Below the pieces are notes generated by a model, which was not told the DNA's origin, ran no database searches, and saw nothing but the letters and a program-made list of their open reading frames with translations. Below, in pieces: positions 1,999-62,032 of a stretch of DNA of 64,000 nucleotides (position 1 is the stretch's first letter; every line of letters starts with the position of its first letter). Both the position numbers and the translations under genes were made by a program. This stretch comes from Bacteroidales bacterium (GTDB lineage: Bacteria > Bacteroidota > Bacteroidia > Bacteroidales > F082). The stretch lies in NCBI GenBank assembly GCA_017395365.1, contig JAFPUN010000003.1, positions 62,001 to 126,000 of the forward strand, given 5' to 3'.

Positions 1999-4866
1999 TT
2001 GTCAGAACGCACGACACATAAGAATTATTTTCACAAGGCGGCCTTTTCTTTACTCGCTGCCATGGTCGTGTTGTTTTATGGATGTAAACAACTATCTCAT
2101 ACAGAGAAAGATAAATACGATTTCGAGACCCCAGTGGTGGACAGCGTCCTTATCGTCCCCGAACGCATCGTCGACACCATCACGATAACACAAGACAGCA
2201 TTGCTGCCTTCGACACGGTCCCTGTTTTGGACACCCTTCCCCTATCGGATTCCATTGCGGTTTCGGAATTGGATTCGATTAATGTAGAGACGCAAGATCT
2301 TGCGTCTCTACAAGATTCGTTACACACCGACACCTTGACACAGGCAAAACCTCGCCGCATCACACCTCACCGTTCAGAATCGGCCATCGAGACCAAGGTC
2401 ATCTGTTCGGCGGCCGACTCGTCGTATCGCGACATGAACAAGAAGAAGATCTTCTATTACGGCAATGCCGAGGCCAAATACGACGACATCGTCCTGAAGG
2501 CCGATTATCTGGAATTCGACCTCGAGACCAGCACCTGCACGGCGCGTGGCGTGGCCGACTCGTTGGGAAAGATACAAGGCCGTCCCGTCTTCACCCAAGG
2601 GGAATCGACCTTTGAAGCCATGGAGATGCAATACAACTTCAAGTCGAAGAAAGGCATCATCACCAAGGTGTGGACCGAGGAGAGCGGCGGTTACCTCCAT
2701 GGCGAACGCATCAAGCGCATGGACGACAACACCATCCACATCCGCACGGGCGGCTACACCACCTGCGACCTCAAGGACCATCCCCACTACCAGTTCAAGT
2801 TCACCAAGGCCAAGGTCATCCCCGACGACAAGATCGTCACGGGTCCCATCTATATGACCATCGCCGACATCCCACTGCCGCTGGCCCTTCCCTTTGCCAT
2901 GATTCCCAACACCAAAGGCAAGAAGTCGGGACTCATCATCCCCACCTACGGCGAGTCGGCCAACCGCGGCTTCTACCTTGAAAACGGTGGCTATTACTGG
3001 GCCATCAACGACAACTACGACTTGCAAATCTTGGGCGACATCTACACCCGTGGCTCGTGGGGCATCAAGCCGACCTTCCGCTACAACAAACGCTATCGTT
3101 TCAACGGCTCGATGGCCTTAGGCTTCGCCGTGAACAAAATCGGCACCAAAGGTGCGGCCGACTACCAGGAGAGCACCGACTTCAAGATCCATTGGACCCA
3201 CAAACAAGACCCCAAGTCGCATCCGCGGCGCAACTTCTCGGCCGACGTGAACATCGTGAGCTCCAATTTCAACAAATACAACGCCCAGACCACCACCGAC
3301 CAGTTGAGCAACACCTTTAGGTCAAGTATCGCCTATCAAACCAATTTTGGCGGCAAGGTCTATCTCACCCTCAACGCCAGCCACAGCCAAAACACACTGA
3401 CACGCCAGGTGACTGCCTCGTTGCCTGAGTTGACCCTGACGGTCAACACCTTCTATCCTCTTAAGAATGTCGGCAAGGCAGGCAAGAAACGCTGGTACCA
3501 AAGCCTCAGCATGGGCTATACAATGAACGGAAAAGCATATATCAACGATGCGGACACCGTGCTCTTCCGCGGCTTCACCGACGACTTTGGCGGTTGGGCC
3601 CGAACGATGATACGCGACCATGTGCAAACAGGCATCTCGCACAGGGTACCCATCAGCGCTACCATCAAGCTGTTCAAGCACTTCTCGTGGACCAACAACC
3701 TGACCTTCAACGACTACATGTACTTCAAACGCATCGAGAAGCAATGGGTCCAGGACAGCGTGCAGACCGATACCATCCACGGCTTCCGCAACCTAGTCGA
3801 CTTCAGTGCAAGCACCAACCTCACCACCAAAATCTACGGTATGGTGAACTTCGCCAACGGTCCCATCCGCGCCATTCGACATGTGTTCACCCCCACCATC
3901 GGCTTCACCTACCGTCCCGACTTCAGCGACCCGCGATGGGGCGTCTACGGCACCTATGTCGATGGTGAAGGAAAGGAGCAGGTCTACAACAAATACGAAA
4001 AGGCGCTCTATGGAACGCCGTCGCAAAACCAGCAGGGACTTCTGACCTATAGCTTCGGCAACAACCTGGAGATCAAAGTGCCCTCGCGTAGCGACACCAT
4101 CACCGGCATCAAGAAAATCCCGATTTTGGAATCGTTCAGCATCTCGGGCAACTACGATGTCACCAAAGACTCGGTCAACTTCTCACCAGTCTCCATCAGC
4201 GGGCGCACCACCTTGTTCAAGAAATTAGGCATCAACTACAGCAGCTCGTGGGATCCCTATGCCGCCGACTCGTTGGGTCGCCGCATCAACCGCTTCGAGG
4301 TCGTCGAAAACGGGAGGCTGTTCCGCAAAGAGCGTTCCTCTTGGAGTTTCAGCATGAGCTACTCCTTCAACCAAAACGACCTCAAGAAACTGAAAGGGGA
4401 GAAGGGCAGCCAGGCCTTACGCGACGAAATCAACGAAAACGCCAAGAAATCGGGCATGTTCGACCCCGACGAACTCAACGAGATCCTTGGCAACCCCAAT
4501 GCCTATATCGACTGGACGACGCCGTGGTCGCTTTCCTTAAGCTACAACCTTACCTACACCACATCTTTAGCCTATGCCGCCTTCATGGGCATTGCCACCA
4601 ACACGGTAGTGCACACCATTGGCCTCAACGGCAATATCAGCATCACGCCCAAATGGAAAGTCACCTTCTCGACCGGCTGGGACTTCGTGAACAACAACAT
4701 CACCTACACCAACCTCAGCGTCTATCGCGACCTGCACTGTTGGGAGATGCGCTTCAACTGGATTCCCATCGGCAGCTACAAGAGCTGGAACTTCACCATC
4801 AATGTGAAGGCGCAGGCGTTGAAGGACTTGAAGTATGAGAAGAAGAAGGATTATCGGGATAATTAG
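1999..4866 (+). CDS. lptD: LPS assembly outer-membrane protein LptD (OstA-like)
   Basis: Large outer-membrane translocon that delivers lipopolysaccharide to the cell surface. The protein has a hydrophobic leader ending in L-F-Y-G-C (lipobox-like), a low-complexity D/S/T-rich stretch, an OstA/LptA-like beta-jellyroll region (from IFYYGNAEAKYDDIVLKA), and a long C-terminal barrel rich in aromatic strands. The frame is open back to ATG 1816, but that would overlap the divergent amidase and precede the promoter at 1953. TTG 1999 gives a complete signal sequence and is my choice, with ATG 2062 as the alternative. A 28-bp palindromic repeat (2284-2311) is inserted in frame at about residues 95-104 (V-E-T-Q-D-L-A-S-L-Q), in the disordered linker before OstA. 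Confidence 0.85.
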   Translation: MSERTTHKNYFHKAAFSLLAAMVVLFYGCKQLSHTEKDKYDFETPVVDSVLIVPERIVDTITITQDSIAAFDTVPVLDTLPLSDSIAVSELDSINVETQDLASLQDSLHTDTLTQAKPRRITPHRSESAIETKVICSAADSSYRDMNKKKIFYYGNAEAKYDDIVLKADYLEFDLETSTCTARGVADSLGKIQGRPVFTQGESTFEAMEMQYNFKSKKGIITKVWTEESGGYLHGERIKRMDDNTIHIRTGGYTTCDLKDHPHYQFKFTKAKVIPDDKIVTGPIYMTIADIPLPLALPFAMIPNTKGKKSGLIIPTYGESANRGFYLENGGYYWAINDNYDLQILGDIYTRGSWGIKPTFRYNKRYRFNGSMALGFAVNKIGTKGAADYQESTDFKIHWTHKQDPKSHPRRNFSADVNIVSSNFNKYNAQTTTDQLSNTFRSSIAYQTNFGGKVYLTLNASHSQNTLTRQVTASLPELTLTVNTFYPLKNVGKAGKKRWYQSLSMGYTMNGKAYINDADTVLFRGFTDDFGGWARTMIRDHVQTGISHRVPISATIKLFKHFSWTNNLTFNDYMYFKRIEKQWVQDSVQTDTIHGFRNLVDFSASTNLTTKIYGMVNFANGPIRAIRHVFTPTIGFTYRPDFSDPRWGVYGTYVDGEGKEQVYNKYEKALYGTPSQNQQGLLTYSFGNNLEIKVPSRSDTITGIKKIPILESFSISGNYDVTKDSVNFSPVSISGRTTLFKKLGINYSSSWDPYAADSLGRRINRFEVVENGRLFRKERSSWSFSMSYSFNQNDLKKLKGEKGSQALRDEINENAKKSGMFDPDELNEILGNPNAYIDWTTPWSLSLSYNLTYTTSLAYAAFMGIATNTVVHTIGLNGNISITPKWKVTFSTGWDFVNNNITYTNLSVYRDLHCWEMRFNWIPIGSYKSWNFTINVKAQALKDLKYEKKKDYRDN
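2284..2311. repeat. SDR-like palindrome, copy 1 (inside lptD)
   Basis: Perfect 28-bp palindrome with arms GTAGAGACG/CGTCTCTAC and core centre CAAGATCTTG. It is 30 bp perfect if the flanking T and A are counted. Translated in frame as VETQDLASLQ. Confidence 0.9.
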
Positions 4867-4996
4867 AGATTCCCTTCAGGAATGGAGTGGCTTTTGTTTT
4901 GTCAACTGCGGCGGCATAAGTCAGTTACCATTTTGTAGTACCTCCGGCCGCCGCATATAACGATATGACTTTACTCCATTCCCCGAGGGGAATCTC
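4866..4996. repeat. About 130-bp imperfect palindrome, copy 1
   Basis: Outer arms GAGATTCCCTTC.GGAATGGAG and its complement; inner arms TGCGGCGGC / GCCGCCGCA. The last base of the lptD stop codon is the first base of the repeat. It ends 38 bases before the -7 element of the next gene. A second copy with the same layout is at 59260-59388. Confidence 0.8.
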
Positions 4997-5033
4997 ATAA
5001 TAACGAAATTGATATGTTTTGTACAAAAATCAT

Positions 5034-5041
5034 TATCTTTG
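5034..5041 (+). promoter_or_regulatory. -7 element for the T9SS thioredoxin-like gene
   Basis: TATCTTTG, 30 bases before ATG 5071. Confidence 0.7.
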
Positions 5042-5070
5042 TCGCGTAAAACCTAATTAAACAAACTCCT

Positions 5071-6459
5071 ATGAAAAAACTATTTACCCTTATTCTCGCG
5101 CTGGCCTTTGGTTTTGGCCTGAAAGCGCAATGTCCGCTCACCACCGCCGTCGACTTCACGGCCACGGACGTTCACGGCACCGAAGTGCACCTGTTCGACA
5201 TCCTCGATGGTGGACAAGCCGTCCTCATCGATTTCTTCTTTACTACCTGCGGCCCTTGCCAGCAAGCCACCCCGAAAATTGTCGAGTCCTACTATGCTAT
5301 GGGTTGCAACATGCATGATGTGTTCTATATGGAAATCGCCACCGGCGACAGCGATGCGGCTTGTCTCAATTGGGTCAACACCTATGGTGTGGAGTACCCC
5401 ACCATCAGCGGGCAGGCTGGCGGTACGGGCATTTGCAGCCAATATGGCATTGGCCAATACCCCACTGTCATCCTCATCATGCCTGACCATCAAATCGTCA
5501 TCCAAGACCTTTGGCCTATCAACAATGCTCAGACCGTCATCAATCAACTTGAAGCTCATGGCCTTCAGCAGCACGACTGCAACACGCCGAGCTACGACCC
5601 GCAGGTGAGCATCAACATCGACGATGTGACTGACTCCAGCGTCACGGCCACGTTTACGCCTAACGAGGACTGTGTCTCATACAGATATATGCTGACCACC
5701 GAAAGCGCCATGGAAGGCTGGGTGCAAATGATGGGTCTCTCTGTGCCAGAAATCGTAAACACACTTGGCATCCTTGGCGAAGGGGTCTTCACCAATACCT
5801 TCCCCAACTTGGAGCCCAACATGGATTTTGCCATTTATGCCGTGCCTTCCGACATTAATGGAGAACTGGGCGAGGTTGTGCTTGCAACCTTCACCACCCT
5901 GCCGATGCTTGACGAAACGCTGACCTTCAGCATGGATACGGTAACGTTGCCTTGGTGCGAAGTGACTTGGATCACCGTTTACAACAACACCGCCGAAGAC
6001 GCCACCATTGTGAAAATCTGTGATGATCGCTATGAATTGGGTTTCTACATTGGTTCAGACGCGATTCTTTCTTGCAATGAAACAGAGATTACCATTCCAC
6101 AAGGCGGTTCCATTGAACTTGGCATCGAGTGCTGTGTGACTGGCAAGAGCATCGTCCCCGATGTTGTTACCGTTTCTAGCAACCTGGCTGATGCCCAATT
6201 CGTGGTTATGGTGGACGACACTTGGTCGGTGGGAGAGAACAATGCCACAGTCACGCTCTTCCCCAATCCCGCCAATGACTTCGTGACCCTCAAGGGCGAA
6301 AGCATCGGCACGGTGCGCGTCTTCAACACCATTGGACAAAAGGTGGATGAATTCGAAGCCAATGGCAGCGAACTCCGCATCAACACCACTGGTTATGAGA
6401 ACGGCTTGTATGTCGTCAAGGCTGGCGAACAGACTTTGAGGTTTGTGGTGAAGCATTAA
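5071..6459 (+). CDS. Secreted thioredoxin-like protein with T9SS sorting domain
   Basis: A 462-residue protein. Signal peptide (ends ..LKAQ), then a TlpA/AhpC-type thioredoxin domain with the redox pair in FFTTCGPCQQATP near residues 57-69 and the cis-Pro-type segment GIGQYPTVIL. A beta-sandwich middle region follows. The C-terminus is a T9SS type A sorting domain (LFPNPANDFVTL ... NTIGQKVDEF ... GYENGLYVVKAG). Such proteins are exported across the outer membrane and anchored or released at the surface; oxidoreductase activity is inferred from the intact CxxC. Monocistronic with its own promoter. Confidence 0.85.
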   Translation: MKKLFTLILALAFGFGLKAQCPLTTAVDFTATDVHGTEVHLFDILDGGQAVLIDFFFTTCGPCQQATPKIVESYYAMGCNMHDVFYMEIATGDSDAACLNWVNTYGVEYPTISGQAGGTGICSQYGIGQYPTVILIMPDHQIVIQDLWPINNAQTVINQLEAHGLQQHDCNTPSYDPQVSINIDDVTDSSVTATFTPNEDCVSYRYMLTTESAMEGWVQMMGLSVPEIVNTLGILGEGVFTNTFPNLEPNMDFAIYAVPSDINGELGEVVLATFTTLPMLDETLTFSMDTVTLPWCEVTWITVYNNTAEDATIVKICDDRYELGFYIGSDAILSCNETEITIPQGGSIELGIECCVTGKSIVPDVVTVSSNLADAQFVVMVDDTWSVGENNATVTLFPNPANDFVTLKGESIGTVRVFNTIGQKVDEFEANGSELRINTTGYENGLYVVKAGEQTLRFVVKH

Positions 6460-6480
6460 ACTAAAAAAGACACCCTTCCG

Positions 6481-6582
6481 CCTCTTGTCCTCATGGCGGA
6501 GGAACATCCGCCATCCCTCGTGCAGAATCGTTATCCAAAAGCACGAGGGATTGCGGGTCAAGCCCGCAATGAGGACAAGGGG
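6481..6582. repeat. Compound-hairpin intergenic repeat, copy 1
   Basis: Outer arms CTTGTCCTCAT/ATGAGGACAAG enclose three hairpins: GGCGG..CCGCC, ATCCCTCGTGC/GCACGAGGGAT and TGCGGG..CCCGCA. Same architecture as the copies at 15427, 38498 and 51117. Confidence 0.8.
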
Positions 6583-6600
6583 AATAAAGACCCATACCCC

Positions 6601-7851
6601 ATGAAAATAATCATCCTTCGTTCCTCGTTCCAGACGGATGAATTCGTCAGGAATGAATATGCCGAATTGATTCAACGGCTGGAAAATGAATGCCATGCTG
6701 AAATCAAAATCATCGGTGACGAATCGGTAGAGACGCAAAATTTTGCGTCTCTACAGGCGTTACCCGATGCATTTATGATCGCCACCGGCGGTGTCGAAAA
6801 CCTGTTCAAACGCATCTGGACGATGATTGATGTAGAGATGGTGTGCACACCGTCTCTACGGAAAAACGTCACAATGATTGCCGACGGGCGCAACAATTCC
6901 TTGGCTGCAGCATTGGAGATATTGACCTATTTGGGCAATGTCGGGGTGGAAGGTAAGATTTTGCATGGGACGAATGTTGAAATTATATCGGCCGTGGTAG
7001 AGACGTGGCGCGCCGCGTCTCTACAAGGCAGAATCGGGTTGTTCGGCAAACCGTCGGATTGGCTGATTGCCAGCGGCGTGGACCGCGGTTTCCTTCGCCA
7101 ACATTACGGCATCGAAACCATCGACATCGACCTGCAACGTCTCATCGAGGGCATCAAAACCGTGTCAAAAACCGAGGCGGAGGAAGTGATGCAGACCTTG
7201 CTGAAACGCGCCAAGGCCGTCGAAGAGCCCACCAGTGCCGATTTGCTAGAGGCCGCCAAGGCCTATCTCGCCATCAAACGCATCTGCCAAGAGGAACGCC
7301 TGGATGCCATGACCATCCGCTGCTTCGACATCGTGAAGACCTGCGGCACGACGAGCTGCTTGGCCTTGGCCTTGCTCAACGACGAAGGCATCGTGGCGGG
7401 ATGCGAGGGCGACATGCAGACGCTGATGAGCATGTATCTGGCCAAGCGTTTGTGTGGCGAAGCGGCCTTCATGGCCAATCCTTCTAACCTCACCGACGAG
7501 ACCTCCATGCTGGCGCACTGCACCATCCCGCTGACAATGTGCGCCGAGACTGTAGTGCGCTCGCATTTCGAGTCGGGCATCGGGGTGGCCATCCAAGGCT
7601 TGCTGCCACTTACCGACTATACCTTATTTAAATGGGGTGGCCCGAAACTAGACCGTTTTTTTGTCGCCGAAGCACAAGCCATAGAGGCGCCCTACAGCGA
7701 CCATTTCTGCCGCACGCAAATCACGCTCAACGTGAACTTGAAGCCCTATCTGTTGCAGCATTCCATCGGCAACCACCACGTCATCATTCGCGGACGGCAT
7801 GCCGACGCAATCAAGCGGTTCATGCTCGAAAACGGGGCGGTTGAATGCTGA
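6601..7851 (+). CDS. L-fucose/L-arabinose isomerase-like protein
   Basis: A 416-residue cytosolic protein from ATG 6601 (MKIIILRSS...). An earlier in-frame ATG at 6493 lies inside the intergenic repeat and is rejected. The C-terminal half resembles the FucI/AraA C-terminal fold (KTCGTTSCLALALLND, ..GCEGDMQTLMSMYL.., MLAHCTIPL, IGNHHVIIRG). The exact sugar substrate cannot be read from sequence, and it may be a non-canonical family member. Three palindromic repeats are inserted in frame in the N-terminal half (residues about 42-51, 77-86 and 132-141), adding about 30 residues. The enzyme otherwise looks intact. No sugar-kinase or aldolase partner is adjacent. Confidence 0.7.
   Translation: MKIIILRSSFQTDEFVRNEYAELIQRLENECHAEIKIIGDESVETQNFASLQALPDAFMIATGGVENLFKRIWTMIDVEMVCTPSLRKNVTMIADGRNNSLAAALEILTYLGNVGVEGKILHGTNVEIISAVVETWRAASLQGRIGLFGKPSDWLIASGVDRGFLRQHYGIETIDIDLQRLIEGIKTVSKTEAEEVMQTLLKRAKAVEEPTSADLLEAAKAYLAIKRICQEERLDAMTIRCFDIVKTCGTTSCLALALLNDEGIVAGCEGDMQTLMSMYLAKRLCGEAAFMANPSNLTDETSMLAHCTIPLTMCAETVVRSHFESGIGVAIQGLLPLTDYTLFKWGGPKLDRFFVAEAQAIEAPYSDHFCRTQITLNVNLKPYLLQHSIGNHHVIIRGRHADAIKRFMLENGAVEC
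6727..6754. repeat. SDR-like palindrome, copy 2
   Basis: Perfect 28-bp palindrome with core CAAAATTTTG. In frame in the isomerase-like gene as VETQNFASLQ. Confidence 0.9.
6832..6859. repeat. SDR-like palindrome, copy 3
   Basis: Core GGTGTGCACACC with one arm mismatch (GAGATG instead of GAGACG). In frame as VEMVCTPSLR. Confidence 0.85.
6997..7024. repeat. SDR-like palindrome, copy 4
   Basis: Core TGGCGCGCCG with one mismatch. In frame as VETWRAASLQ. Confidence 0.85.
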
Positions 7852-7856
7852 ATGAT

Positions 7857-7894
7857 GGATGCGGAATGTTGCGTCTCTGCAACATTCCGCATCC
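7857..7894. other. Strong hairpin between convergent genes
   Basis: A perfect 16-bp stem (GGATGCGGAATGTTGC and its complement) with a 6-nt loop GTCTCT lies between the 3' ends of the isomerase-like gene and the patatin gene. There is no good T-run on either side, so it may be a bidirectional transcript end or RNA-stability element rather than a classic terminator. Confidence 0.55.
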
Positions 7895-12959: not shown

Positions 12960-12963
12960 GACC

Positions 12964-15368: not shown

Positions 15369-15426
15369 AGTATTGTGTGTTATGATTATTATATCTTTGT
15401 TGACCTTCAACACAGGTCCTTTTTAT

Positions 15427-15514
15427 CGTCATGGCGGAGGAACATCCGCCATCTCCTAAAGGAAGAGGACACCCTTCTGTTTGGGAGATTGCGGGTCTAT
15501 CGCCCGCAATGACG
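15427..15514. repeat. Compound-hairpin intergenic repeat, copy 2
   Basis: Outer arms CGTCAT/ATGACG; hairpins GGCGG..CCGCC, ATCTCC/GGAGAT and TGCGGG..CCCGCA. It lies inside the mce-mmdA spacer. Confidence 0.8.
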
Positions 15515-15548
15515 GCAAGGGGTGGTGTTGGTCCCGTGGTTCAGTGTC

Positions 15549-32013: not shown

Positions 32014-32041
32014 GTAGAGACGCGATCAATCGCGTCTCTAC
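32014..32041. repeat. SDR-like palindrome, copy 5 (intergenic)
   Basis: Arms GTAGAGACGCGAT/ATCGCGTCTCTAC around CA. Lies 4 bases beyond the stop of the ABC transporter gene. Confidence 0.9.
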
Positions 32042-33854: not shown

Positions 33855-35639
33855 TTATTGTTTTGTTTCTGTTGCACACACATACATCAGGCAATTCCGA
33901 CAGTCGAATTCGAGACGGAAGGTATGGCTCCCGTTACGGATCAACAAAGGCGTTGCCTTCTGTCCAGTTTCCTTGCTGCACATCCCGTTGGCATAGCGGA
34001 TGCAATGGTGGCAGGTCATCAGATGGTCGGGGATGGCGTCGGGGTCGGTGTGGACAATCGTGGTAGAGACGCGGCGCGCCACGTCTCTACATTCACGATT
34101 ATTCCGATGGTTTTCAATCAATGTATCGGTTAATTGTTCCACCAATTGGCGTTTCATCTCACCGATGACGGAAGCAGGGATGAGGCGCGGTTCGGCGAAT
34201 TGCAATTCCAGATTGACGGGATTGAACACCGTGTCGCCCCATTGCAGGGCCTTTTTCCGGATGTTTTCGGTGGCCTTCTCGGGGTTGTTGGCAGTGATTT
34301 TTTCAGATTGAATGCTGGTAGAGACGCGATTAATCGCGTCTCTACAAACAGCGACCATTTCATAACCAGTTTCTGTTTCCTTCAATATCAAATCAATGTC
34401 AATTTTGCGGTTACCTGCCGAGGCATCCACCTGTTTTTGCCATTCGAGGTCATAATTGCGATAGATTTTCGCACCGCGATGTGCACCATGGGGTCTGTTT
34501 GTAGAGACGGTGTGCACACCGTCTCTACCTGTATTCACAACATCGGCGCGAAGGCCTATCAATTCATTGTCCTGGTTCAGAAAACACAAACCGTCACCGT
34601 TATGTAGAGACGTGCCATGGCGCGTCTCTACCTTAATTTCCATGCGCAACGGGTTGCACCACACGACCTCGCCGATGTATTCGCCCATCGATTTAGGCGT
34701 GAAAGGAGCATCAATGCCCTTCTGCCGCCCGTTGATGAAGAAATCGGTGAAACCCCGGTTGAACGATTTCTCCGGATTGACCTCAAATGTGGAGACGTGG
34801 CGCGCCGCGTCTCTACAAGAGGATTGTATATATTCCGGGCGGCGTTCGAAAATTTCATCCAGTTTCTGACGATAGAACGCCGTCACATTCTTCACATAAT
34901 CAGCGTCTTTCATCCTGCCTTCAATCTTGAAGCTGGTGATGCCCGCATCCATCAATTCCTCCAGATGCTCGCTATTGTTAAGGTCTTTCAGGCAGAGCAA
35001 ATGCCGGTTTTTGATCAGCACATTACCATCTCCGTCAAGAAGGTCATAGGGGAGACGGCAAGGCTGGGCGCAGGCACCACGGTTGGCACTGCGGTTGCCG
35101 ATATATTGGCTCAAATAGCACTGCCCGCTGTGGCTGACACACAAGGCACCATGGATGAAAAATTCCAGCGGCACGGTGGTCTTCTCCCGAATCTCGCGAA
35201 TCTGTTTAAGGCTCAACTCGCGACCCAAAACAACTTGACTAAACCCCAATTGTTCAAGGAGTTGTACCTTTTCCACGCTCAGGTTGTCGCATTGCGTGCT
35301 GGCATGAAGCGGGATGGGCGGCAAGTCGAGTTGCAGGAGCTGCATATCCTGCACGATCAGTGCATCGACACCGACGTTCCAGCAGTCGTAAACCAGCTGT
35401 CGTGCGCGCTCTAACTCATTTTCATATAACAAAGTGTTGAGCGTGACATAGACCTTGGCGTCAAACAAAGCGGCATGACGACAAAGGCGTTCGATGTCGG
35501 CCATGCTGTTGGAGGCCTTCTCGCGAGCTCCAAAAGAAGGTCCGCCGATATAGACGGCATCGGCACCATGATTAATGGCAGCCATACCCACCTCGGCATC
35601 CTTGGCGGGCGAAAGCAGTTCTATCTTCTTCACATTCAT
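33855..35639 (-). CDS. U32 peptidase-family protein (RlhA/TrhP-like) with five repeat-encoded insertions
   Basis: A 594-residue member of the U32 family, whose bacterial members YdcP/RlhA and YegQ/TrhP take part in hydroxylation of 23S rRNA or tRNA. N-terminal TIM-like domain (IELLSPAKDAEVGMAAINHGADAVYIG), prephenate-dependent-type core with HGALCVSHSGQCYLSQ and CAQPCRLPY cysteines, then a DUF3656-like region (NRGFTDFFINGRQKG) and a C-terminal Cys cluster (CHHCIRYANGMC, DCRNCLMYV). Five palindromic repeats are inserted in frame at residues about 274-283, 336-345, 370-379, 431-440 and 516-525, together about 50 residues. All sit after the conserved N-terminal core. Confidence 0.85.
   Translation of the reverse strand: MNVKKIELLSPAKDAEVGMAAINHGADAVYIGGPSFGAREKASNSMADIERLCRHAALFDAKVYVTLNTLLYENELERARQLVYDCWNVGVDALIVQDMQLLQLDLPPIPLHASTQCDNLSVEKVQLLEQLGFSQVVLGRELSLKQIREIREKTTVPLEFFIHGALCVSHSGQCYLSQYIGNRSANRGACAQPCRLPYDLLDGDGNVLIKNRHLLCLKDLNNSEHLEELMDAGITSFKIEGRMKDADYVKNVTAFYRQKLDEIFERRPEYIQSSCRDAARHVSTFEVNPEKSFNRGFTDFFINGRQKGIDAPFTPKSMGEYIGEVVWCNPLRMEIKVETRHGTSLHNGDGLCFLNQDNELIGLRADVVNTGRDGVHTVSTNRPHGAHRGAKIYRNYDLEWQKQVDASAGNRKIDIDLILKETETGYEMVAVCRDAINRVSTSIQSEKITANNPEKATENIRKKALQWGDTVFNPVNLELQFAEPRLIPASVIGEMKRQLVEQLTDTLIENHRNNRECRDVARRVSTTIVHTDPDAIPDHLMTCHHCIRYANGMCSKETGQKATPLLIRNGSHTFRLEFDCRNCLMYVCATETKQ
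34063..34090. repeat. SDR-like palindrome, copy 6
   Basis: Core CGGCGCGCCA. In frame in the U32 gene as CRDVARRVST. Confidence 0.9.
34318..34345. repeat. SDR-like palindrome, copy 7
   Basis: Perfect palindrome, core GCGATTAATCGC. In frame as CRDAINRVST. Confidence 0.9.
34501..34528. repeat. SDR-like palindrome, copy 8
   Basis: Perfect palindrome, core GGTGTGCACACC. In frame as GRDGVHTVST. Confidence 0.9.
34604..34631. repeat. SDR-like palindrome, copy 9
   Basis: Core TGCCATGGCG, one mismatch. In frame in the other permitted phase as VETRHGTSLH. Confidence 0.9.
34789..34816. repeat. SDR-like palindrome, copy 10
   Basis: Core TGGCGCGCCG, left arm GTGGAGACG (one change). In frame as CRDAARHVST. 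Confidence 0.85.
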
Positions 35640-38497: not shown

Positions 38498-38584
38498 CGT
38501 CATAGCGGACAAGGATCCGCCATCTCCTGCGCAAGAAGGATCACCTTTGCGTTCAGGAGATTGCGGATCAAGTCCGCAATGACT
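38498..38584. repeat. Compound-hairpin intergenic repeat, copy 3
   Basis: Outer CGTCAT/ATGAC, hairpins GCGGA..TCCGC, ATCTCCTG/CAGGAGAT, TGCGGA..TCCGCA. A partial extra arm (GCCCGCAATGACGG) follows at about 38620-38635. Confidence 0.75.
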
Positions 38585-38660
38585 CCGTGGGGCAATCGCG
38601 GTTCTGAAACTGCGATGAAGCCCGCAATGACGGCTTGGTCTTCTTTTGGACAGTAAGAGC

Positions 38661-40400
38661 ATGAGAAAAAAGCGCATATATGATCTCGTACTTTTCAGCA
38701 TCTTGATGGTGCTGCTCTTCCTGCCTTTGCTGCAAGCCCATGTCTTGCACATCCCCCTGAAACCCTTGAACGGTGTTACCATGGAAACAGAACAACCCAA
38801 ATTCAATCTTGTCTCCTATCGTTCAGGCGATTACGCCAAACAAGAAGAGGCTTATGTGGGCGAACATTTCGGCTTCCGCGAACCCGTCATTCGACTTTAT
38901 AACCAATATCTTTGGAGCTGCTACAAGAAAACCTATGCCCACGACGTAGTGGCGGGCAAACAAGGCTGGCTCTACACGCCCGAGAGCGTCAGCGACTACT
39001 ACGGCAACGAACTGCTCCGTTGGCAACCCTCACCCGAAGAGGCTCGACAGCACTTCGACCGCGAAATCAGATACATGAACCGTGTGCGCACCATCCTCAA
39101 GGAAAACGACGTGGAGATGCTGGCCTTCATCGCGCCCGAAAAGAGTTTCCTCTATCCCGAGTATCTCCCCAAACAAGAATACAATACATCCACCTTCAAT
39201 GCCAGCGAATACTTTTTGGAAAAATTCAAGGAGACAGGATTTCCTTGCATTGACATGACGGGCTGGTTCAGGCAGATGAAAGACACCGTCAACTATCCGT
39301 TGATACCGCAGACAGGCGCCCACTGGGTCTTCCCCGCCGTGTATGCCGCCGACTCGCTATTCAGGTTCATGGGTGACCTAAAAGGCATCGAACTGCCCCA
39401 TCTGAAAATAGGTGAACTGCACGAAGGCGACAACCATGGTGCGGACAACGACTTGGAGAAACTGCTCAACCTAGCGCTACCCATCCGAAAACGCCAAGGC
39501 TATAGTCCCATCGCAGATGTCACGGTGGAAAGCGGTCCGAACAGCGTCAAACCCAAGGTGCTCTTCATCGGCAACTCGTTCATGTGGGGCATCGTCAACC
39601 AAGTGCCGATGAAGGATGTGTTTGACGAAATGGAGTTTTGGTATTATTTCTCTACCGCCTATACTGGCGATCCGTTGATGCCCAATGGCAATGTCGTCGA
39701 CCTCAACCTGTTAGAGAAAATGCTTGATTTCGACTACATCGTATGGTTCACCACGGGCAACCAATTGAACAAAGGCACCAATGGCTTTGCCAATTCTGCC
39801 ATCCTTACGCTTGGCGTTGATGACAGCATAAGAAGGGAATATATCAATACTATTACCGATTCGCTCCGTAGAGACGCGATTAATCGCGCCTCTACAGACA
39901 CCATCCTCCGACAAGAGGCCATCGCCATCCTGCACAGCCACCCTGAAATCATCCCCGAATTGAACGCCGAAACACTGACCACACAAAACCGCAACATTCC
40001 TTACGCCAAGGTTATCAAGGACATCCGCAAGGACAGCACTTGGATGGCCGCCTTGAAGGCACAAGCATTTTTGCGCTCCGCAACAATGGACCAGATACTC
40101 CATGCCGAAGTGGACCGTATCAAGGCGGGCAAGCCGCTCTACAAAGACCAAACAGATGAGATCCGGTTTTCTTTCCAAGTCCAAGAAGAAGTCCAGCAAC
40201 GCATAAAAAGAATCCCCAATTACGAGAAATTGATGGAAATCATCCGCGAAAAAGCCATAAAACAAAACAAGCCCCTCGAAAAGGCCATCGAAGACGATGC
40301 CATTTGGATGACTATGGAGATCTATGGCCTCGACCATTGCCGCCTAGACGACGACCCCGATGCCGTTATTCCCATACCCAAAGATTTTCAATTGAAATAA
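38661..40400 (+). CDS. AlgJ/DHHW-like polysaccharide O-acetylation protein 2
   Basis: A 579-residue periplasmic protein with signal anchor (MRKKRIYDLVLFSILMVLLF). SGNH-type core with HFGFREPVIRLYNQ, IPQTGAHW and LFIGNSF, where the nucleophile Ser is kept in GNS form. The long C-terminal part is helical and carries two copies of the locus-specific module (D-S-T-W-M-A-A-L-K-A-Q-A and YEKLMEIIREKAIKQNKPLE). A palindromic repeat at 39868-39895 is inserted in frame around residues 402-411 (RRDAINRAST). Start ATG 38661; a start 15 bases earlier is less likely. Confidence 0.8.
   Translation: MRKKRIYDLVLFSILMVLLFLPLLQAHVLHIPLKPLNGVTMETEQPKFNLVSYRSGDYAKQEEAYVGEHFGFREPVIRLYNQYLWSCYKKTYAHDVVAGKQGWLYTPESVSDYYGNELLRWQPSPEEARQHFDREIRYMNRVRTILKENDVEMLAFIAPEKSFLYPEYLPKQEYNTSTFNASEYFLEKFKETGFPCIDMTGWFRQMKDTVNYPLIPQTGAHWVFPAVYAADSLFRFMGDLKGIELPHLKIGELHEGDNHGADNDLEKLLNLALPIRKRQGYSPIADVTVESGPNSVKPKVLFIGNSFMWGIVNQVPMKDVFDEMEFWYYFSTAYTGDPLMPNGNVVDLNLLEKMLDFDYIVWFTTGNQLNKGTNGFANSAILTLGVDDSIRREYINTITDSLRRDAINRASTDTILRQEAIAILHSHPEIIPELNAETLTTQNRNIPYAKVIKDIRKDSTWMAALKAQAFLRSATMDQILHAEVDRIKAGKPLYKDQTDEIRFSFQVQEEVQQRIKRIPNYEKLMEIIREKAIKQNKPLEKAIEDDAIWMTMEIYGLDHCRLDDDPDAVIPIPKDFQLK
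39868..39895. repeat. SDR-like palindrome, copy 11
   Basis: Core GCGATTAATCGC, right arm CGCCTCTAC (one change). In frame in AlgJ-like gene 2. Confidence 0.88.
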
Positions 40401-51108: not shown

Positions 51109-51116
51109 ACCTCAGT

Positions 51117-51204
51117 CGTCATGGCGGGCTTGACCCGCCATCTCCTAAGCGACATAGACAAACATTCGCGTAAAGGAGATGGCGGATCCTTGTCCGCCAT
51201 GACG
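51117..51204. repeat. Compound-hairpin intergenic repeat, copy 4
   Basis: Outer CGTCAT/ATGACG, hairpins GGCGGGcttgaCCCGCC, ATCTCCT/AGGAGAT, GGCGGAtccttgTCCGCC. Fills the gap between convergent genes. Confidence 0.8.
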
Positions 51205-53213: not shown

Positions 53214-55052
53214 CTAATACTTTACAATTATCTTTCCCGTTCTGCCAATTCTCAACACATAAACTCCTGCCTCCAAATTGGGTTGAATCACAATGTCATC
53301 ATGACCTTGTTGAATCATGCAACTTTGAGAGAACACTTTCCTGCCCATCAAGTCGTAAATGGCAATCTCATTTGCAACGAGATCATCAGCGGCAATGCTG
53401 ACACGAATCTCACCCGAGAAAGGATTGGGATAACAAGAGAAACCAACCCATTCTTCTTCTGGCAAACTCCAGAAAGCCTCTATCTGTTCCACCATACGAT
53501 TGTTCCTGGACCGAAGATAGTCATCCACTTCACCTATTTGGCCTAACCATTTCGAAACACTGGAGGGGAAACCAAACCTATCGCTTTGGCAGGCAACTTC
53601 GCCTTCGATTTCATCTCGCATGACCGACAAAATGGGACCTGTGTGGGCGTAATTCAACCTGTGATTCAGCAAATCCTCGAAACGGGTGCGGAGTCTTTCC
53701 ACAAAACCATCATTCTTCAACAATCGCCGGTAAAACAACGTAGCAGTGGCATTGGACGGATTTAAATGATCACTAGTGTCAACGATATTGGCGAACACAT
53801 CCCAATCGCGGAAAAAGCAACCGTCGCCATCATAGAACATCCACCGCCACTTCCTGTCATCGGTTTGCCAGCAGCGGAGATTGTTGGCCGGCCAGTCGAC
53901 ATTGGCGGAATACAACTCGAAGATGAGATAATCGATGAAATTATTCATGTCGATTTTCGAGCACAGGTAGTCGTAGTCCTCGACCTGCGACAAGTCGGCG
54001 GTCTCCATCCAGTCATAAAGATTGCGCCATTCCGTATCGTCGCCTTCATCCAAGGTCGTCCAATTCTTGATGATATTGCAACTGTCGGGGTTGACATCAT
54101 AATGGTCCTCCAAATAATGCCCATCCGTCGCTTCTTCCATGTAATAGACCCCCCAATACTCGCCGTTCAAGAAAACTACAACAGCCCTTGTACCCAACAC
54201 GTCAATATCCAACAGGCGCGCCACGCGATGGGAGAAAGCGTCGTTCAGTCCCGTCTGCAACCAGTTGCTGCACCTGAATGGTTTGAGATTGAAATGCTTG
54301 ATGTTGTCAATCGGGGTATCGCTGAAAAACGAGTGCTTGAAGCGTTTCTTGCCATATTCTTCCCGTGCAAACAGCTTCATGCCTTTCTGTTGGAATCGAC
54401 GCGAGGCACCGCCATGGGTACGCAATCCCGCCTGCTGATTGACGCCACGATTATCCTGCTCATAAAACTCCACGTTGCAAAGGCGCTCCCATGCCATACC
54501 CTTGCCGAAATAATTGCCCGTCCAAAGCGGCATCGTTGGAGAGCACCAAGCGCCAGGCACAAAAATGCCCCTGTGGTAATCGAACAGGTCCAGTGAATCG
54601 GCGCAAATCGAAATGACAGGCAGTCCGTGCGTGTCGCAACCCAGTGCCTTGATGAAATAACTATTCGTCACGACCTGACTGATGCACTGGCCAGCGTCGT
54701 TGAAAACCGCCGCGCGGATAACGATGCAATGCTGCACCGAATCCACGGCGAAGAACTCATTACTTGGACAATTGACGATAGTGAAAATATCCGATTTTGA
54801 ATAGTTTCGCTCATCAAGCATCAAGGGTTCGTCATATAGTGGCGACTGTGCCGTAGGGCGATTGCCGTTCACCGTATATCGGATATGGTTCTGTGGGTAA
54901 TAGTTGAATAGTTCAAGCGCAAAGGCATCGTCATAAAAACCGCCTCGCGCCGAAAACAGCACCGTGTCGTTCTGGGCAAGGCCTATCAAAGGCAACGCAA
55001 GCAGAGCGACAAGCAGGAAACAGTTCCTTATTTTGGCAAAACACTTCTTCAT
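53214..55052 (-). CDS. Secreted CotH-kinase-like protein with T9SS sorting domain, copy 2
   Basis: A 612-residue exported protein. Signal peptide (..LPLIGLAQ), then a chitobiase/hexosaminidase C-terminal-like beta domain (FSARGGFYDDAFALELFNYY ... YTVNGNRPTAQSPLY). The CotH domain follows (NQQAGLRTHGGASRRFQQKG, LNGEYWGVYYMEEATDGHYL, WRWMFYDGDGCF with the DxD-type metal site) and a T9SS sorting domain ends it (CYPNPFSGEIRVS ... GVYVLRIGRTG). CotH proteins are atypical protein kinases related to Fam20C; the target here is unknown. Its ATG overlaps the stop of the upstream copy by 4 bases (ATGA). Confidence 0.85.
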   Translation of the reverse strand: MKKCFAKIRNCFLLVALLALPLIGLAQNDTVLFSARGGFYDDAFALELFNYYPQNHIRYTVNGNRPTAQSPLYDEPLMLDERNYSKSDIFTIVNCPSNEFFAVDSVQHCIVIRAAVFNDAGQCISQVVTNSYFIKALGCDTHGLPVISICADSLDLFDYHRGIFVPGAWCSPTMPLWTGNYFGKGMAWERLCNVEFYEQDNRGVNQQAGLRTHGGASRRFQQKGMKLFAREEYGKKRFKHSFFSDTPIDNIKHFNLKPFRCSNWLQTGLNDAFSHRVARLLDIDVLGTRAVVVFLNGEYWGVYYMEEATDGHYLEDHYDVNPDSCNIIKNWTTLDEGDDTEWRNLYDWMETADLSQVEDYDYLCSKIDMNNFIDYLIFELYSANVDWPANNLRCWQTDDRKWRWMFYDGDGCFFRDWDVFANIVDTSDHLNPSNATATLFYRRLLKNDGFVERLRTRFEDLLNHRLNYAHTGPILSVMRDEIEGEVACQSDRFGFPSSVSKWLGQIGEVDDYLRSRNNRMVEQIEAFWSLPEEEWVGFSCYPNPFSGEIRVSIAADDLVANEIAIYDLMGRKVFSQSCMIQQGHDDIVIQPNLEAGVYVLRIGRTGKIIVKY

Positions 55053-56857
55053 AGTCTCACTATTCTTTGCATGTGCCCCCCAATGCGCAACACATAAACG
55101 CCAGCAGGCAAAGAGGGATTAATGCTTATCTCATTCATGCCATTGATTGAACGGGAGAAAACTTTCCTACCCATCAAGTCGTATATGGCAATTTCGCCTA
55201 AGATACCTGTATCAAAACAGAGATGAATAACGCCTGAAGACGGGTTGGGGTAGCACAACAGAGCATCTTGGTACGATTCTGGCAACTCCAAAAACGCATC
55301 CAAAGGTTCAAGTATGTCGTCCCCTCTTTTCATCAAAAACCAATTTACCCTTCCCATGTCATCATTCCAAGCCTCCATACTGGTAGGAAAGTTGAATCTG
55401 TCCGACTGGAGCGGGATTTCATCAATAATGTCTGCTCTGATACTATCAAATATCGGGCGGGTGGTTTCATAACTGAATGCCGATCCCAACAGCTCATGAA
55501 AACGAGCATCAAAATGCTCCTTAAACACATCGTTTTCAAGCAATCTCCTGAAAAACAATGTTGCCCTCCAATGGGACGGCCAAGTCTCGTTTCCTTCATA
55601 AACTGCATTTTCAAAGGCATAAAACGATGACCAACGCAAGCACGCATCGCCATCAAAGAAAATCCAACGCCATTTGCCGTCACCTAATTGCCAGCAACGC
55701 ATGTTGTTCGCTGGCCAGTCGGTGTTTTCAGAGAACAATTCAAATATCTGATAATCAATAAAATTATCCAAGTCTATCTGGGTCGACACAAAAGCATAAT
55801 TGTCCGCATCAACCAAGTCGGCCGTCTCCATCCATTGGAACAAAGCGCTGAAATTCTCCACCGAACCATGGTCGACAATAGGATTCCAACCACTAATGAG
55901 GTTGATATTGTTGATATCCACCCCAAAATGGTCTTCAAGATAACGCTCGTCAGGTCTTTCATGAATATAATAGATGCCCCAATACTCGCCATTGAGGAAC
56001 AACACAACGGGGCGAGACGCCAACGTTTCCAAGTCCAAGCGCGAAGCGATTTGATTGCAAATATGGTCGTTCACCCCTGATTGGTGCCACGATGCGGCAA
56101 ATGGTTTTAACACCAAATGCTTGAAATTGTTATTTGGTATTGTCTTAAAGAAATTGTGCTTGAAACGCTTTTTGCCATATTCCTCACGGGCATAGATTTT
56201 CACGCATTTCTGCTGAAAACGACGGCCGTTGCCGCCATGGGTTCGCATTCCTGCTTGCTGGTTGATACCCGTATTGTCCAATTCATAAAACTCTATATTC
56301 ATTGGACGTTCCCACTCCCTACCTTCTTCATAATAATTACCCGTCCAATTGGGATTCAACGGATCGTAGTAAACGCCTGGCACAAAGATGCCCGTTTCAT
56401 AGTCAAACAAATCCAGCGAGTCGGCGCAAAGCGAAACGGCAGGCAAGCCATGCGTGTCGCAACCCAAGGCACGTATGAAATAACTATGGGTCATCACTGA
56501 ACTGACGCAGCTATCGTTTTCATCGAACGCCGCAGCACGAATCACAATGCAATGCTGAACCGAGTCGGGGAGATAAAAGTCTTGCTCGGGACAATTGATG
56601 ACTGTATAAATGTCTGCATTTGAATAAAGATGCTCGTCCAACATCAATGATTCCTCATACAGTGGCGACTCTGCCGTAGGCTTGTTTCCATTGGTGGTAT
56701 AACGGATGTGATGTTGCGGATAATAGTTGAACAATTCCAACTGGAACGCATCCTCATAGAAACCACCCGAAGCCGAGAAGATGACCGTGTCGTTTTGGGC
56801 CATGGCCACAAAAGCGACCGACAGGGCGAATAATATGAAACAGAGACGTTTGCGCAT
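55049..56857 (-). CDS. Secreted CotH-kinase-like protein with T9SS sorting domain, copy 1
   Basis: A 602-residue paralogue of the next gene with the same architecture: signal peptide (FVAMAQ), chitobiase-like beta domain, CotH core (NQQAGMRTHGGNGRRFQQKC, LNGEYWGIYYIHERPDERYL, WRWIFFDGDACL), T9SS domain (CYPNPSSGVIHLCF ... GVYVLRIGG). First gene of the CotH-CotH-GH16-like operon. ATG 56857 lies 17 bases after the -7 element; the 16-codon upstream extension would include the promoter and is rejected. Confidence 0.85.
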   Translation of the reverse strand: MRKRLCFILFALSVAFVAMAQNDTVIFSASGGFYEDAFQLELFNYYPQHHIRYTTNGNKPTAESPLYEESLMLDEHLYSNADIYTVINCPEQDFYLPDSVQHCIVIRAAAFDENDSCVSSVMTHSYFIRALGCDTHGLPAVSLCADSLDLFDYETGIFVPGVYYDPLNPNWTGNYYEEGREWERPMNIEFYELDNTGINQQAGMRTHGGNGRRFQQKCVKIYAREEYGKKRFKHNFFKTIPNNNFKHLVLKPFAASWHQSGVNDHICNQIASRLDLETLASRPVVLFLNGEYWGIYYIHERPDERYLEDHFGVDINNINLISGWNPIVDHGSVENFSALFQWMETADLVDADNYAFVSTQIDLDNFIDYQIFELFSENTDWPANNMRCWQLGDGKWRWIFFDGDACLRWSSFYAFENAVYEGNETWPSHWRATLFFRRLLENDVFKEHFDARFHELLGSAFSYETTRPIFDSIRADIIDEIPLQSDRFNFPTSMEAWNDDMGRVNWFLMKRGDDILEPLDAFLELPESYQDALLCYPNPSSGVIHLCFDTGILGEIAIYDLMGRKVFSRSINGMNEISINPSLPAGVYVLRIGGHMQRIVRL

Positions 56858-56874
56858 GTCGTTATTTAACGACG

Positions 56875-56882
56875 CAAAAATA
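56875..56882 (-). promoter_or_regulatory. -7 element of the CotH/GH16-like operon
   Basis: TATTTTTG then GCGTCG on the minus strand. Confidence 0.65.
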
Positions 56883-56890
56883 CAAAAAAT

Positions 56891-56918
56891 GTAGAGACGT
56901 AGCACGCCACGTCTCTAC
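56891..56918. repeat. SDR-like palindrome, copy 12 (intergenic)
   Basis: Arms GTAGAGACGT/ACGTCTCTAC with an imperfect core AGCACGCC. Lies directly upstream of the CotH promoter, where the -33 element would be. Confidence 0.88.
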
Positions 56919-56944
56919 AAACGTTTTCAATCGGAAATCACCAA

Positions 56945-59158: not shown

Positions 59159-59221
59159 TGATTTAACTTAATTTATTATGTATCTGATAATTATAAACAA
59201 TCACACCCTTGGGGGCGAGTG

Positions 59222-59229
59222 CAAAGATA
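59222..59229 (-). promoter_or_regulatory. -7 element for dpp7
   Basis: TATCTTTG then GCAC on the minus strand, 64 bases before ATG 59158. Confidence 0.65.
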
Positions 59230-59259
59230 AAGAATTATTCAATACCTTTATAACTTCTT

Positions 59260-59388
59260 GAGATTCCCTTCGGGAATGGAGAATCGTTTTCTTTTTCTGC
59301 GGCGGCATGTGATGTTTACCCTTTGCACACTTTATCAGCCGCCGCTTAATAACACACAGAATATATCCATTCCCGAGGGAATCTCCAA
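59260..59388. repeat. About 130-bp imperfect palindrome, copy 2
   Basis: Outer arms GAGATTCCCTTCGGGAATGGAG / CATTCCCGAGGGAATCTC, inner TGCGGCGGC / GCCGCCGC. As in copy 1 it ends just before a plus-strand -7 element (18 bases here). Confidence 0.8.
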
Positions 59389-59405
59389 ATTCAATAATAT
59401 TCACT

Positions 59406-59413
59406 ACCTTTGC
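59406..59413 (+). promoter_or_regulatory. -7 element for the RNA methyltransferase gene
   Basis: TACCTTTG then CAGC, 17 bases before ATG 59430. Confidence 0.7.
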
Positions 59414-59429
59414 AGCAAATTTAACCCCA

Positions 59430-60604: not shown

Positions 60605-61230
60605 CGTTTATTATACTGATTCATCGTCCTGTCCACCCCTTGGGTGACGAAACTCTTGATGATTTCGACAGCCTCGTCGCATTTTTGGTCGACGATAGGT
60701 TCCTCGGAAGGTTTCCATTGGCCTAGCACGAAATCCACTTGACGGCCGCGCGGGAAGTCATCGCCAAGACCGAAACGCAAACGGCAGAACACATTGGTAC
60801 CCAGTTTCTCAATGATGTCGGTCAGACCGTTGTGGCCGCCGTCAGCGCCTTGCTTGCGGAGGCGCAACGTACCCAAAGGCAAAGCAATGTCATCGTTGAC
60901 AACCAAAAGATTCTCGATTGGAATCTTCTCCTGCTGCAACCAGTATTTTACCGCCTTGCCGCTGAGATTCATGTAGGTCGTCGGCTTGATGACAAGTAAA
61001 GTCTTGCCCTTAAATTTCATCTCTGAGGTTTGGGCAAGACGGTTCGTGGTGAAGGAACCCTCCAGGTCCTTCGCCAGGCGGTCGGCAATCTTAAAACCAA
61101 TGTTGTGTCGCGTGTTGTCGTACTCGGCACCTATGTTTCCCAAACAGGCAATCAGGTATTTCATTTCGTCGGGTTGTTCTTGTTTCCGCTTGCGGAATAA
61201 CCATGCAAAGATACTATTAATAAATGACAT
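60601..61230 (-). CDS. pth: Peptidyl-tRNA hydrolase
   Basis: A 209-residue enzyme that recycles peptidyl-tRNA. Motifs: CLGNIGAEYDNTRHNIGF with the catalytic His, KPTTYMNLSGKAV, DDIALPLGTLRLR and GADGGHNGLTDI. The standard bacterial start would be the internal ATG at 61164 (MKYLIACLGN). The 22-residue N-terminal extension with a short hydrophobic and Arg/Lys-rich patch resembles those often annotated in Bacteroidetes Pth, so I keep the longer start with moderate certainty. Confidence 0.92.
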   Translation of the reverse strand: MSFINSIFAWLFRKRKQEQPDEMKYLIACLGNIGAEYDNTRHNIGFKIADRLAKDLEGSFTTNRLAQTSEMKFKGKTLLVIKPTTYMNLSGKAVKYWLQQEKIPIENLLVVNDDIALPLGTLRLRKQGADGGHNGLTDIIEKLGTNVFCRLRFGLGDDFPRGRQVDFVLGQWKPSEEPIVDQKCDEAVEIIKSFVTQGVDRTMNQYNKR

Positions 61231-61250
61231 GATGCATTATTGTCATAAGG

Positions 61251-61318
61251 GCAGGTCCCTAAGCCTGCCGAAGGGCCTGTTGATATATAACGGTGCTTCG
61301 ACGGGCTCAGCAACCTGC
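61251..61318. repeat. TTCGACGGGCTCAG-type inverted repeat
   Basis: Left arm 61251-61274 (GCAGGTCCCTAAGCCTGCCGAAGG), right arm 61294-61318; imperfectly complementary. It resembles a palindromic intergenic repeat type common in many bacterial genomes; only one copy is in this window. Confidence 0.6.
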
Positions 61319-61335
61319 TTATTCCCAACTAAAAA

Positions 61336-61355
61336 AGGCCGCCCGAAGACGGCCT
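61336..61355 (-). terminator. Terminator of rplY
   Basis: AGGCCG/CGGCCT stem with 8-nt loop. The minus strand continues with TTTTT, 22 bases past the rplY stop. Confidence 0.8.
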
Positions 61356-61377
61356 ATTCGTATGGTTGAATAAAGGT

Positions 61378-61956
61378 TTACTCTTCGGTCTCTTCCTCGG
61401 CAACGACAGCGCCACGGGCAGCGTTGACGGCGAAGATAACAGTGTAGCCAGGAGTGATGGGCGTGACATTCTCGATGTCGAGGTCCTTCACCTTAATGGC
61501 TTCGTTGATGTTCACGTTGCTGATGTTGACCTTCACATAGTCGGGCAGATCCTTAATCAGACCACAAACTTTCACCTTCTTGATACCCATCTTGGGTTTA
61601 CCACCACGCATCACACCGGCAGCCGAGCCTTCGAGGGCGATAGGCAGCACCACAGTGATGGGTTGGTCTTCCTTCACGATGAGGAAATCGGCATGCAGCA
61701 CCTTGTCGGTCACAGGGTGATACTGAATGTCTTGCAGGATGGTCTTGTAAGTCTTACCATTGACTTCGAAGTCGATGATGTAAGTCTCAGGGGTAAAGAG
61801 GATTTTCGTGAAGTTCTTCTCGGAAGTGGCGAAGTGGATTTGCTCTTCACCAGCACCGTACATGACACATGGAACCATTTCGGCTTTACGCAAAGCCTTA
61901 GTATCCTTTTTCCCTACGTTCTCGCGAAGAGAACCGCTCAATGATACAGTTTTCAT
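61378..61956 (-). CDS. rplY: 50S ribosomal protein L25 (general stress protein Ctc type)
   Basis: A 192-residue long-form L25 that binds 5S rRNA. The N-terminal L25 beta domain (SLRENVGKKDTKALRKAEMVPCVMYG) is followed by a TL5/Ctc C-terminal beta domain (HADFLIVKEDQPITVVLPIALEG...) and an acidic tail (VVAEEETEE). Follows prs on the same strand. Confidence 0.93.
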   Translation of the reverse strand: MKTVSLSGSLRENVGKKDTKALRKAEMVPCVMYGAGEEQIHFATSEKNFTKILFTPETYIIDFEVNGKTYKTILQDIQYHPVTDKVLHADFLIVKEDQPITVVLPIALEGSAAGVMRGGKPKMGIKKVKVCGLIKDLPDYVKVNISNVNINEAIKVKDLDIENVTPITPGYTVIFAVNAARGAVVAEEETEE

Positions 61957-62004
61957 TGTGTTTAAATGTTTGGTTGTTAATGAATTGATTTGTTTATTGT
62001 TGTT

Positions 62005-62032
62005 GTAGAGACGCGGCGCGCCACGTCTCTAC
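62005..62032. repeat. SDR-like palindrome, copy 13 (intergenic)
   Basis: Arms GTAGAGACG/CGTCTCTAC with core CGGCGCGCCA. Lies between the prs stop and rplY start. Same core as copy 6 in the U32 gene. Confidence 0.9.

Follow-up and report, generated by a model that had tools for sequence, protein, structure and literature searches.

The DNA analysed here (the window) is a stretch of 64,000 nucleotides from a Bacteroidales bacterium (assembly GCA_017395365.1, contig JAFPUN010000003.1, positions 62,001 to 126,000), and contains a family of short palindromes located both within and between genes. The palindrome is 28 bp long and consists of two arms of 9 bases around a variable core of ten bases, without a spacer. 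A search with the exact-arm pattern GTAGAGACG-N(6-14)-CGTCTCTAC identified 10 copies in the window (mean of 0 in 100 shuffled controls), and allowing one mismatch in one arm added three further copies (6832, 34789 and 39868), giving a total of 13 copies with eight core types. All 23 exact arm sequences in the window fall within these 13 palindromes, and every exact-arm copy shows GTAG, paired with CTAC, on each of its two strands. This confirms the observation made in a preliminary description of the window, which had listed 13 copies, ten of them in four genes, and at least six core types. An Rfam scan of the window gave no match to the palindrome, the sole match being a tRNA gene (63141-63224), and a Por_Secre_tail domain was found among the window proteins, consistent with the Bacteroidota.

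The ten genic copies all lie in open frames. One copy (2284..2311, core CAAGATCTTG) is located in an LptD-like gene (1816-4866), and three are found in a gene for an AraA_central-like sugar isomerase (6493..7851, plus strand), here referred to as slot 1 (6727..6754, core CAAAATTTTG, peptide VETQNFASLQ), slot 2 (6832..6859, core GTGTGCACAC, peptide VEMVCTPSLR) and slot 3 (6997..7024, core TGGCGCGCCG, peptide VETWRAASLQ). Five copies are hosted by a peptidase U32 gene with a DUF3656 domain (33855..35639, minus strand), at 34063..34090 (core CGGCGCGCCA on the plus strand), 34318..34345 (core CGATTAATCG), 34501..34528 (core GTGTGCACAC), 34604..34631 (core TGCCATGGCG) and 34789..34816 (core TGGCGCGCCG), and the tenth (39868..39895, core CGATTAATCG) lies in an AlgX-like gene (38646-40400). 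The other three copies are either intergenic (32014..32041, with the imperfect core CGATCAATCG, and 62005..62032, upstream of a phosphoribosyl pyrophosphokinase-like gene on the minus strand, 62044-62979) or at a gene edge (56891..56918, at the 5' edge of a CotH-domain gene on the minus strand, 55049-56905).

The same search in the complete assembly to which the window belongs (2.11 Mb, 72.6% complete) gave 69 exact-arm copies, while the backward-pattern control gave none, and the commonest core in this genome was GTGTGCACAC (14 of 52). The reading phase was examined for 54 copies, comprising 48 of the 69 exact-arm copies and six with arm mismatches. Open reading frames (ORFs) of at least 150 amino acids, not all of them confirmed genes, hold 38 of these 54, with 18 in the phase encoding V-E-T and 20 in the phase encoding R-D. 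The earlier claim that only two phases are used is borne out by these numbers; as the third phase reads TAG, its absence from genes is automatic.

We compared the isomerase-like gene with its orthologues in 12 genomes of the same genus, allowing up to two mismatches per arm. Slot 3 was filled in all 13 genomes, with 11 distinct ten-base cores and with spacing to the flanks identical in 10/12 orthologues, while slot 1 contained a palindrome in 10/13 genomes, with eight cores. Slot 2 has a clean palindrome only in the window and in genome G002, an equal-length sequence in eight genomes, and is missing in three. The three slots are variable stretches in an otherwise well-conserved protein (23 orthologous proteins), and their peptides (residues 43-52, 78-87 and 133-142) match the stretches of low predicted local distance difference test (pLDDT) score in the structure model (mean pLDDT 77.6; confidence is low at 80-87 and at 136-139, and dips over 41-50). 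The slots are long-lived and situated in tolerant loops, and their positions are older than the cores they contain. The possibility that the palindromes are old conserved coding sequence thus holds for the positions, which are shared with the same-genus orthologues and are therefore old, but not for the cores, which differ there. A hot spot which received independent insertions in each lineage would fit with slots lying in variable loops that also receive other repeats, but the filling of slot 3 in all 13 aligned genomes, its identical spacing in 10/12 orthologues and the weak target preference of the palindrome (0.68 bit at position -1) make this explanation improbable. The 34318 slot of the U32 gene contains the same core, other cores or other repeats in relatives. 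In addition, the slots matching 34063-34501 in relatives (L199-L209) hold other repeats, for example GTAGGGACGCAC palindromes, and a long repeat starting with GTCATTGCGAGG. In G022 (L034), slot 3 has the core GTGTGCACAC but the arms TCAGGGGCG/CGCCCCTGA, and hence the arms may change too.

The difference between slots and surrounding DNA is most apparent from the comparison of the window with G002. Between 6718 and 7337 (plus strand) the two sequences are near-identical outside the elements (6/536 bases differ) and in the arms (1/54), while the cores differ at 24/30 bases, with all three elements changed. Most 50-base windows around this tract differ from G002 by roughly 15 to 30%, although there is a second near-identical stretch at about 5950-6150. 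The near-identity outside the elements indicates that the tract was recently shared, and that the cores changed since or with the sharing. The shared tract starts within ten bases of slot 1, which may be due to chance or reflect a recombination edge at the palindrome.

A similar pattern was seen across the orthologous slot pairs, leaving out the chance match at 38946, pairs with fewer than 300 flank bases, elements not of 28 bp and repeats of the same pair. With divergence of the flanks (60 bp on either side) increasing over 0.087, 0.125, 0.175, 0.252 and 0.442 (22, 32, 21, 23 and 26 slot pairs, respectively), the core divergence was 0.49, 0.63, 0.58, 0.57 and 0.71, and the arm divergence 0.06, 0.10, 0.13, 0.11 and 0.04. 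Core divergence was already 0.50 and 0.55 in the two closest flank bins (two pairs each). Only 18/128 orthologous slot pairs had an identical core; among random copies of two genomes 6% share a core, and the cores differ by 0.61 to 0.64. Change in the core far outpaces change in the surrounding DNA at many slots, and the presence of different cores at fixed places in relatives agrees with the earlier proposal that cores are exchanged between copies. Arm divergence was below flank divergence in six of the seven bins, as would be expected if the palindrome were a binding or regulatory site, its arms under selection and its core free to vary; nothing would require such a core to be palindromic, however, and the copies are found in unrelated genes and in numbers that within the genus range from 1 to 69 per genome, and we consider such a site very improbable. 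The cores are indeed palindromic, with 470/530 inner pairs being Watson-Crick pairs in 106 copies from three genomes, which is in line with hypermutation in place followed by hairpin-templated repair preserving the palindrome, as are the paired arm changes in slot 1 of G020 and slot 3 of G017, and one in-place inversion (alternatively explained by two point changes). Such a process is difficult to reconcile with arms that change little while cores saturate, and with cores recurring from a limited set tied to lineages of the repetitive extragenic palindrome (REP)-associated tyrosine transposases (RAYTs) described below, and hence is unlikely to be the source of the core variation.

Comparison of the U32 gene with 12 orthologues showed how much length is added when a palindrome is gained. 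The window gene exceeds 11/12 orthologues by 9 bases at 34789 and 10/12 by 12 bases at 34604 (the element being absent from all 12), and at 34501 it is 15 bases longer than the five of 12 orthologues with native length, the others either carrying the element (three) or having longer repeats or a contig end. With 28 bases coming in, these net gains correspond to the loss of about 19, 16 and 13 native bases, respectively, and thus gaining the element cost native bases at these three sites. The net insertion of 27 or 30 bases previously put forward as a rule does not agree with these values, nor with those obtained against distant orthologues in the isomerase-like gene, which were +36 (a single clean case) and +9 (a remnant) for slot 1, and +39, +33 and +27, each against a single distant orthologue, for slot 2. 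Clean insertion followed by compensating deletions may be an alternative route for the gains. No close empty site was available for reading a target site duplication, the gains replaced native bases, and comparisons within Parabacteroides and Planktothrix gave no clean strain-level empty site.

The palindrome is present in 44/60 genomes searched (own genome included), representing 9/25 genera, and all 36 genomes of the genus carry it, with 1 to 69 copies each. The genome-wide pattern search suggested previously thus found further copies in the assembly and across the genus, as expected for a dispersed mobile family which occurs in frame in genes. A scan of named genomes gave at least 117 palindrome stretches, and those listed were by title cyanobacterial (32), from other phyla (19), or from Bacteroidota or unassigned (66); an identical 28-mer with the core CGATTAATCG was common to all three groups among the matches listed. 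The resemblance to a cyanobacterial repeat, noted in the preliminary description, therefore extends to the same palindrome, in part as an identical 28-mer. Copy numbers ranged from 7 to 361 in 11 cyanobacterial genomes, and from 1 to 12 in four Bacteroidota genomes counted alongside. Of 72,556 plasmid records, 36 matched the palindrome, with the named organisms in this tally being Bacteroidota or cyanobacteria, and none of 50,697 phage records did.

An ORF bearing the motif HxH is present in twelve of the at least 117 listed stretches, and in 11 of these 12 the palindrome (allowing up to two mismatches per arm) overlaps this ORF, by position within the gene body in nine. The 11 overlapping ORFs resemble one another, and all seven proteins scanned matched the NCBIfam family NF047646 (REP-associated tyrosine transposase) with E-values of 1e-12 to 1e-22, one of the seven reaching the curated cut-off. 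Matches to the Pfam family Y1_Tnp (PF01797) were weak (E 4e-5 to 0.012 for nine proteins), and one of three weak Y1-type matches (L060) is situated between palindromes. A profile built from 13 cognate proteins was run against 35 genomes of the genus, and matched in 24. Of the 30 RAYT loci fetched from these, 27 show the HxH ORF, with a palindrome inside the gene in 19, and inside or within 400 bases in 21. Many RAYT genes of this one group therefore carry the palindrome in frame inside and beside the gene, something which was not foreseen in the preliminary description. In the own genome, the RAYT gene (G000:C6:8898-9461) has an intact frame of 189 amino acids. One GTGTGCACAC palindrome precedes it by 43 bases and another lies within the gene, where it encodes R-D-G-V-H-T-V-S-T shortly after the HxH motif. 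The copy number per genome had a median of 25 in the 21 genomes with a RAYT match of E 1e-37 or better, versus 8 in the 14 genomes without (p 0.004), and the link of the palindrome to this RAYT group is well supported.

We rejected the conclusion that the palindrome has no transposase partner, as this had been based on the general Y1 family PF01797, which scores the cognate group weakly. Copy number was weakly correlated with the general Y1 count (rho 0.40), and the correlation with genome size was 0.34. General Y1 loci, of which 84 of 163 matches were read, were not enriched in palindromes, with four present in 263 kb, where an assumed density of 20 per Mb would give about five. At L337 a palindrome was located 151 bases past the Y1 match, and no locus was flanked on both sides; the 84 loci include L333 and L363, which are members of the cognate group without a palindrome. 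Two other RAYT-type genes of the own genome (L019 1036-1806 and L020 1426-2145) adjoin REPIN-like inverted repeats of the CATTGTCGCCGACTGCG type, which differ from the 28 bp palindrome.

The core was then compared with RAYT relatedness for 28 of 41 loci, the other loci being without a labelling palindrome (six) or without an ORF under a stricter motif (seven: L382, L383, L391, L395-L397 and L403). RAYT identity was 59% for pairs with the same core (23 pairs) and 41% for pairs with different cores (355 pairs), a difference reached in 0/2000 permutations, and the exact core was common to 41/62 pairs of palindromes around one RAYT. Judged by these sequence comparisons, the palindrome core goes with the RAYT lineage.

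The exchange of one copy for another in place is an inferred step, and the reading which we prefer, with a probability of roughly 0.6, is that this RAYT group spreads the palindrome, a micro-element of about 28 bp that is itself non-autonomous, with changes in RAYT lineage overwriting old coding slots. The core would be what a given RAYT recognises, and as RAYT/core lineages succeed one another in a genome, resident palindromes would be overwritten; the shared GTAG/CTAC arms most likely would serve the RAYT as cutting sites, enabling this overwriting. A more far-reaching form, which we put forward tentatively, is that rival RAYT lineages, each with its own core, contest common coding slots and overwrite the residents in frame, across phyla. 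If so, each takeover would rewrite loops of ten codons in conserved host proteins, and in many RAYTs the protein itself would include a loop encoded by the RAYT's own palindrome. The main rival is arm-mediated repair conversion, in which a RAYT seeds the copies but core turnover results from short-patch repair or replication exchange through the arms, by conversion or template switching, without a transposase step. The replacement of 13 to 19 native bases upon gain, which is unlike precise transposition, is in its favour, as are the arms common to all members and the differing slot cores in genomes that gave no RAYT-group match (for example G006 and G003, both incomplete), but at 9 bases the arms are short substrates for recombination and the core tracks the RAYT lineage, and on balance we consider repair conversion rather unlikely.

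Several observations weigh against spread and overwriting by RAYT lineages. With regard to the RAYT link, the permutation test leaves shared ancestry uncorrected, the at least 117 stretches had been picked for their palindrome content, no palindrome lies near six of the 27 RAYT loci, and the 11 of 35 genomes of the genus that have no match to the RAYT group still carry 1 to 25 copies, including G016 (94% complete, 11 copies), G025 (91%, 22 copies) and G031 (93%, 17 copies). The slot cores of G002 (CGCCATGGCA and TTGCGCGCAA) differ from that of its one fetched RAYT locus (CAAAATCTTG). With regard to core turnover, most slot pairs derive from two slots of one gene, no intermediate of core replacement was caught, and three flank mismatches in the window/G002 pair cluster just 3' of slot 3, suggesting that allele exchange between species may contribute. 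Furthermore, the imperfect core at 32014 was inherited unchanged in G030 and G018 (94 and 90% flank identity), the core at 34318 is the same in G015, G020 and G028, and that at 34501 in G015 and G020 (all 90-94% flank identity). When 20 copies of one Planktothrix genome were compared with 20 stretches of another, 11 could be paired (97-99.8% flank identity), of which nine were identical, one was inverted and one was not settled. Turnover is thus not uniform. In the inverted pair (L300 and L304) the same copy is reverse-complemented in place, with flanks that are 99.5% identical.

The palindrome shares features with several known repeats. Cyanobacterial small dispersed repeats, reportedly described by Elhai in 2008 as very small mobile repeats with compensatory changes, are similar by description, and the present palindrome is likewise common in cyanobacteria. 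Miniature inverted-repeat transposable elements are 70-300 bp with terminal inverted repeats and a spacer, unlike the present palindrome. The Rickettsia palindromic element RPE-1 is longer than 28 bp. By their description, Rickettsia palindromic elements are palindromic DNA in frame in protein genes (PMC3733652), as are the ten genic window copies. PARCEL, as described in PMC2996958, is also a palindromic coding repeat with a patchy distribution across phyla, but consists of tandem domains of 25 residues. REPINs are likewise described as a non-autonomous palindromic population dependent on a RAYT, but form an inverted REP pair (PMC3116915), whereas our palindromes are single, as is apparent from the placement of the exact arms in the window.

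The closest resemblance is to the GTAG REPs and REPtrons, described as short, high-copy palindromes with GTAG ends and a RAYT gene flanked by the repeat (PMC3733652; PMC8266576), for which compensated stem subfamilies, intragenic copies and two cyanobacterial families (GTAG-15 and GTAG-16) are also given (PMC3733652). According to these descriptions, both are high-copy palindromes in the 20-40 bp range (here 28 bp, with 69 exact-arm copies in 2.11 Mb) and both are associated with a RAYT (here at 21/27 loci of one group). The REP tag is described as unpaired and at one end, whereas here GTAG is paired with CTAC at both ends without a loop, and as one defining REP feature is thus not present, we refer to the palindrome as a REP/RAYT-like variant. 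Further differences from the REPs and REPtrons as described are the copies in frame inside the RAYT gene itself, the core tied to the RAYT lineage and the in-place core turnover measured here. GTAG REPs are given as predominantly intergenic; of the copies examined here, 38/54 are in ORFs of the length given above, not all of them confirmed genes. The REP/RAYT literature already includes REPs within genes, as well as distinct REPs at approximately one recB site in two Xanthomonas species (PMC3733652). In our literature searches, which predate the RAYT link, we saw neither turnover of cores in place nor an association of cores with RAYT lineages reported; searches with the arm sequence and 'palindrom' gave papers unrelated by title, and those on short-patch recombination terms gave no report.

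The earlier interpretation was partly supported. The RAYT-linked micro-palindrome is real and widespread, and its cores turn over fast in coding slots that are old. Three traits that are rarely joined come together in it, namely a RAYT carrying its own repeat in frame, a core tied to lineage, and inherited slots with turnover of their content, and this allows the spread of REP-like repeats to be tested on individual slots and cores. Palindrome turnover also generates variation quickly in the loops of ordinary proteins.

Finally, a second dispersed palindromic repeat, distinct from the 28 bp family and about 100 bp long, is located at 6481-6582, with many matches across the genus and partial matches in the window at 15423-15522, 38559-38582 and 51115-51142. 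As this repeat overlies the annotated start of the isomerase-like ORF, the true start of this gene is probably at 6601.

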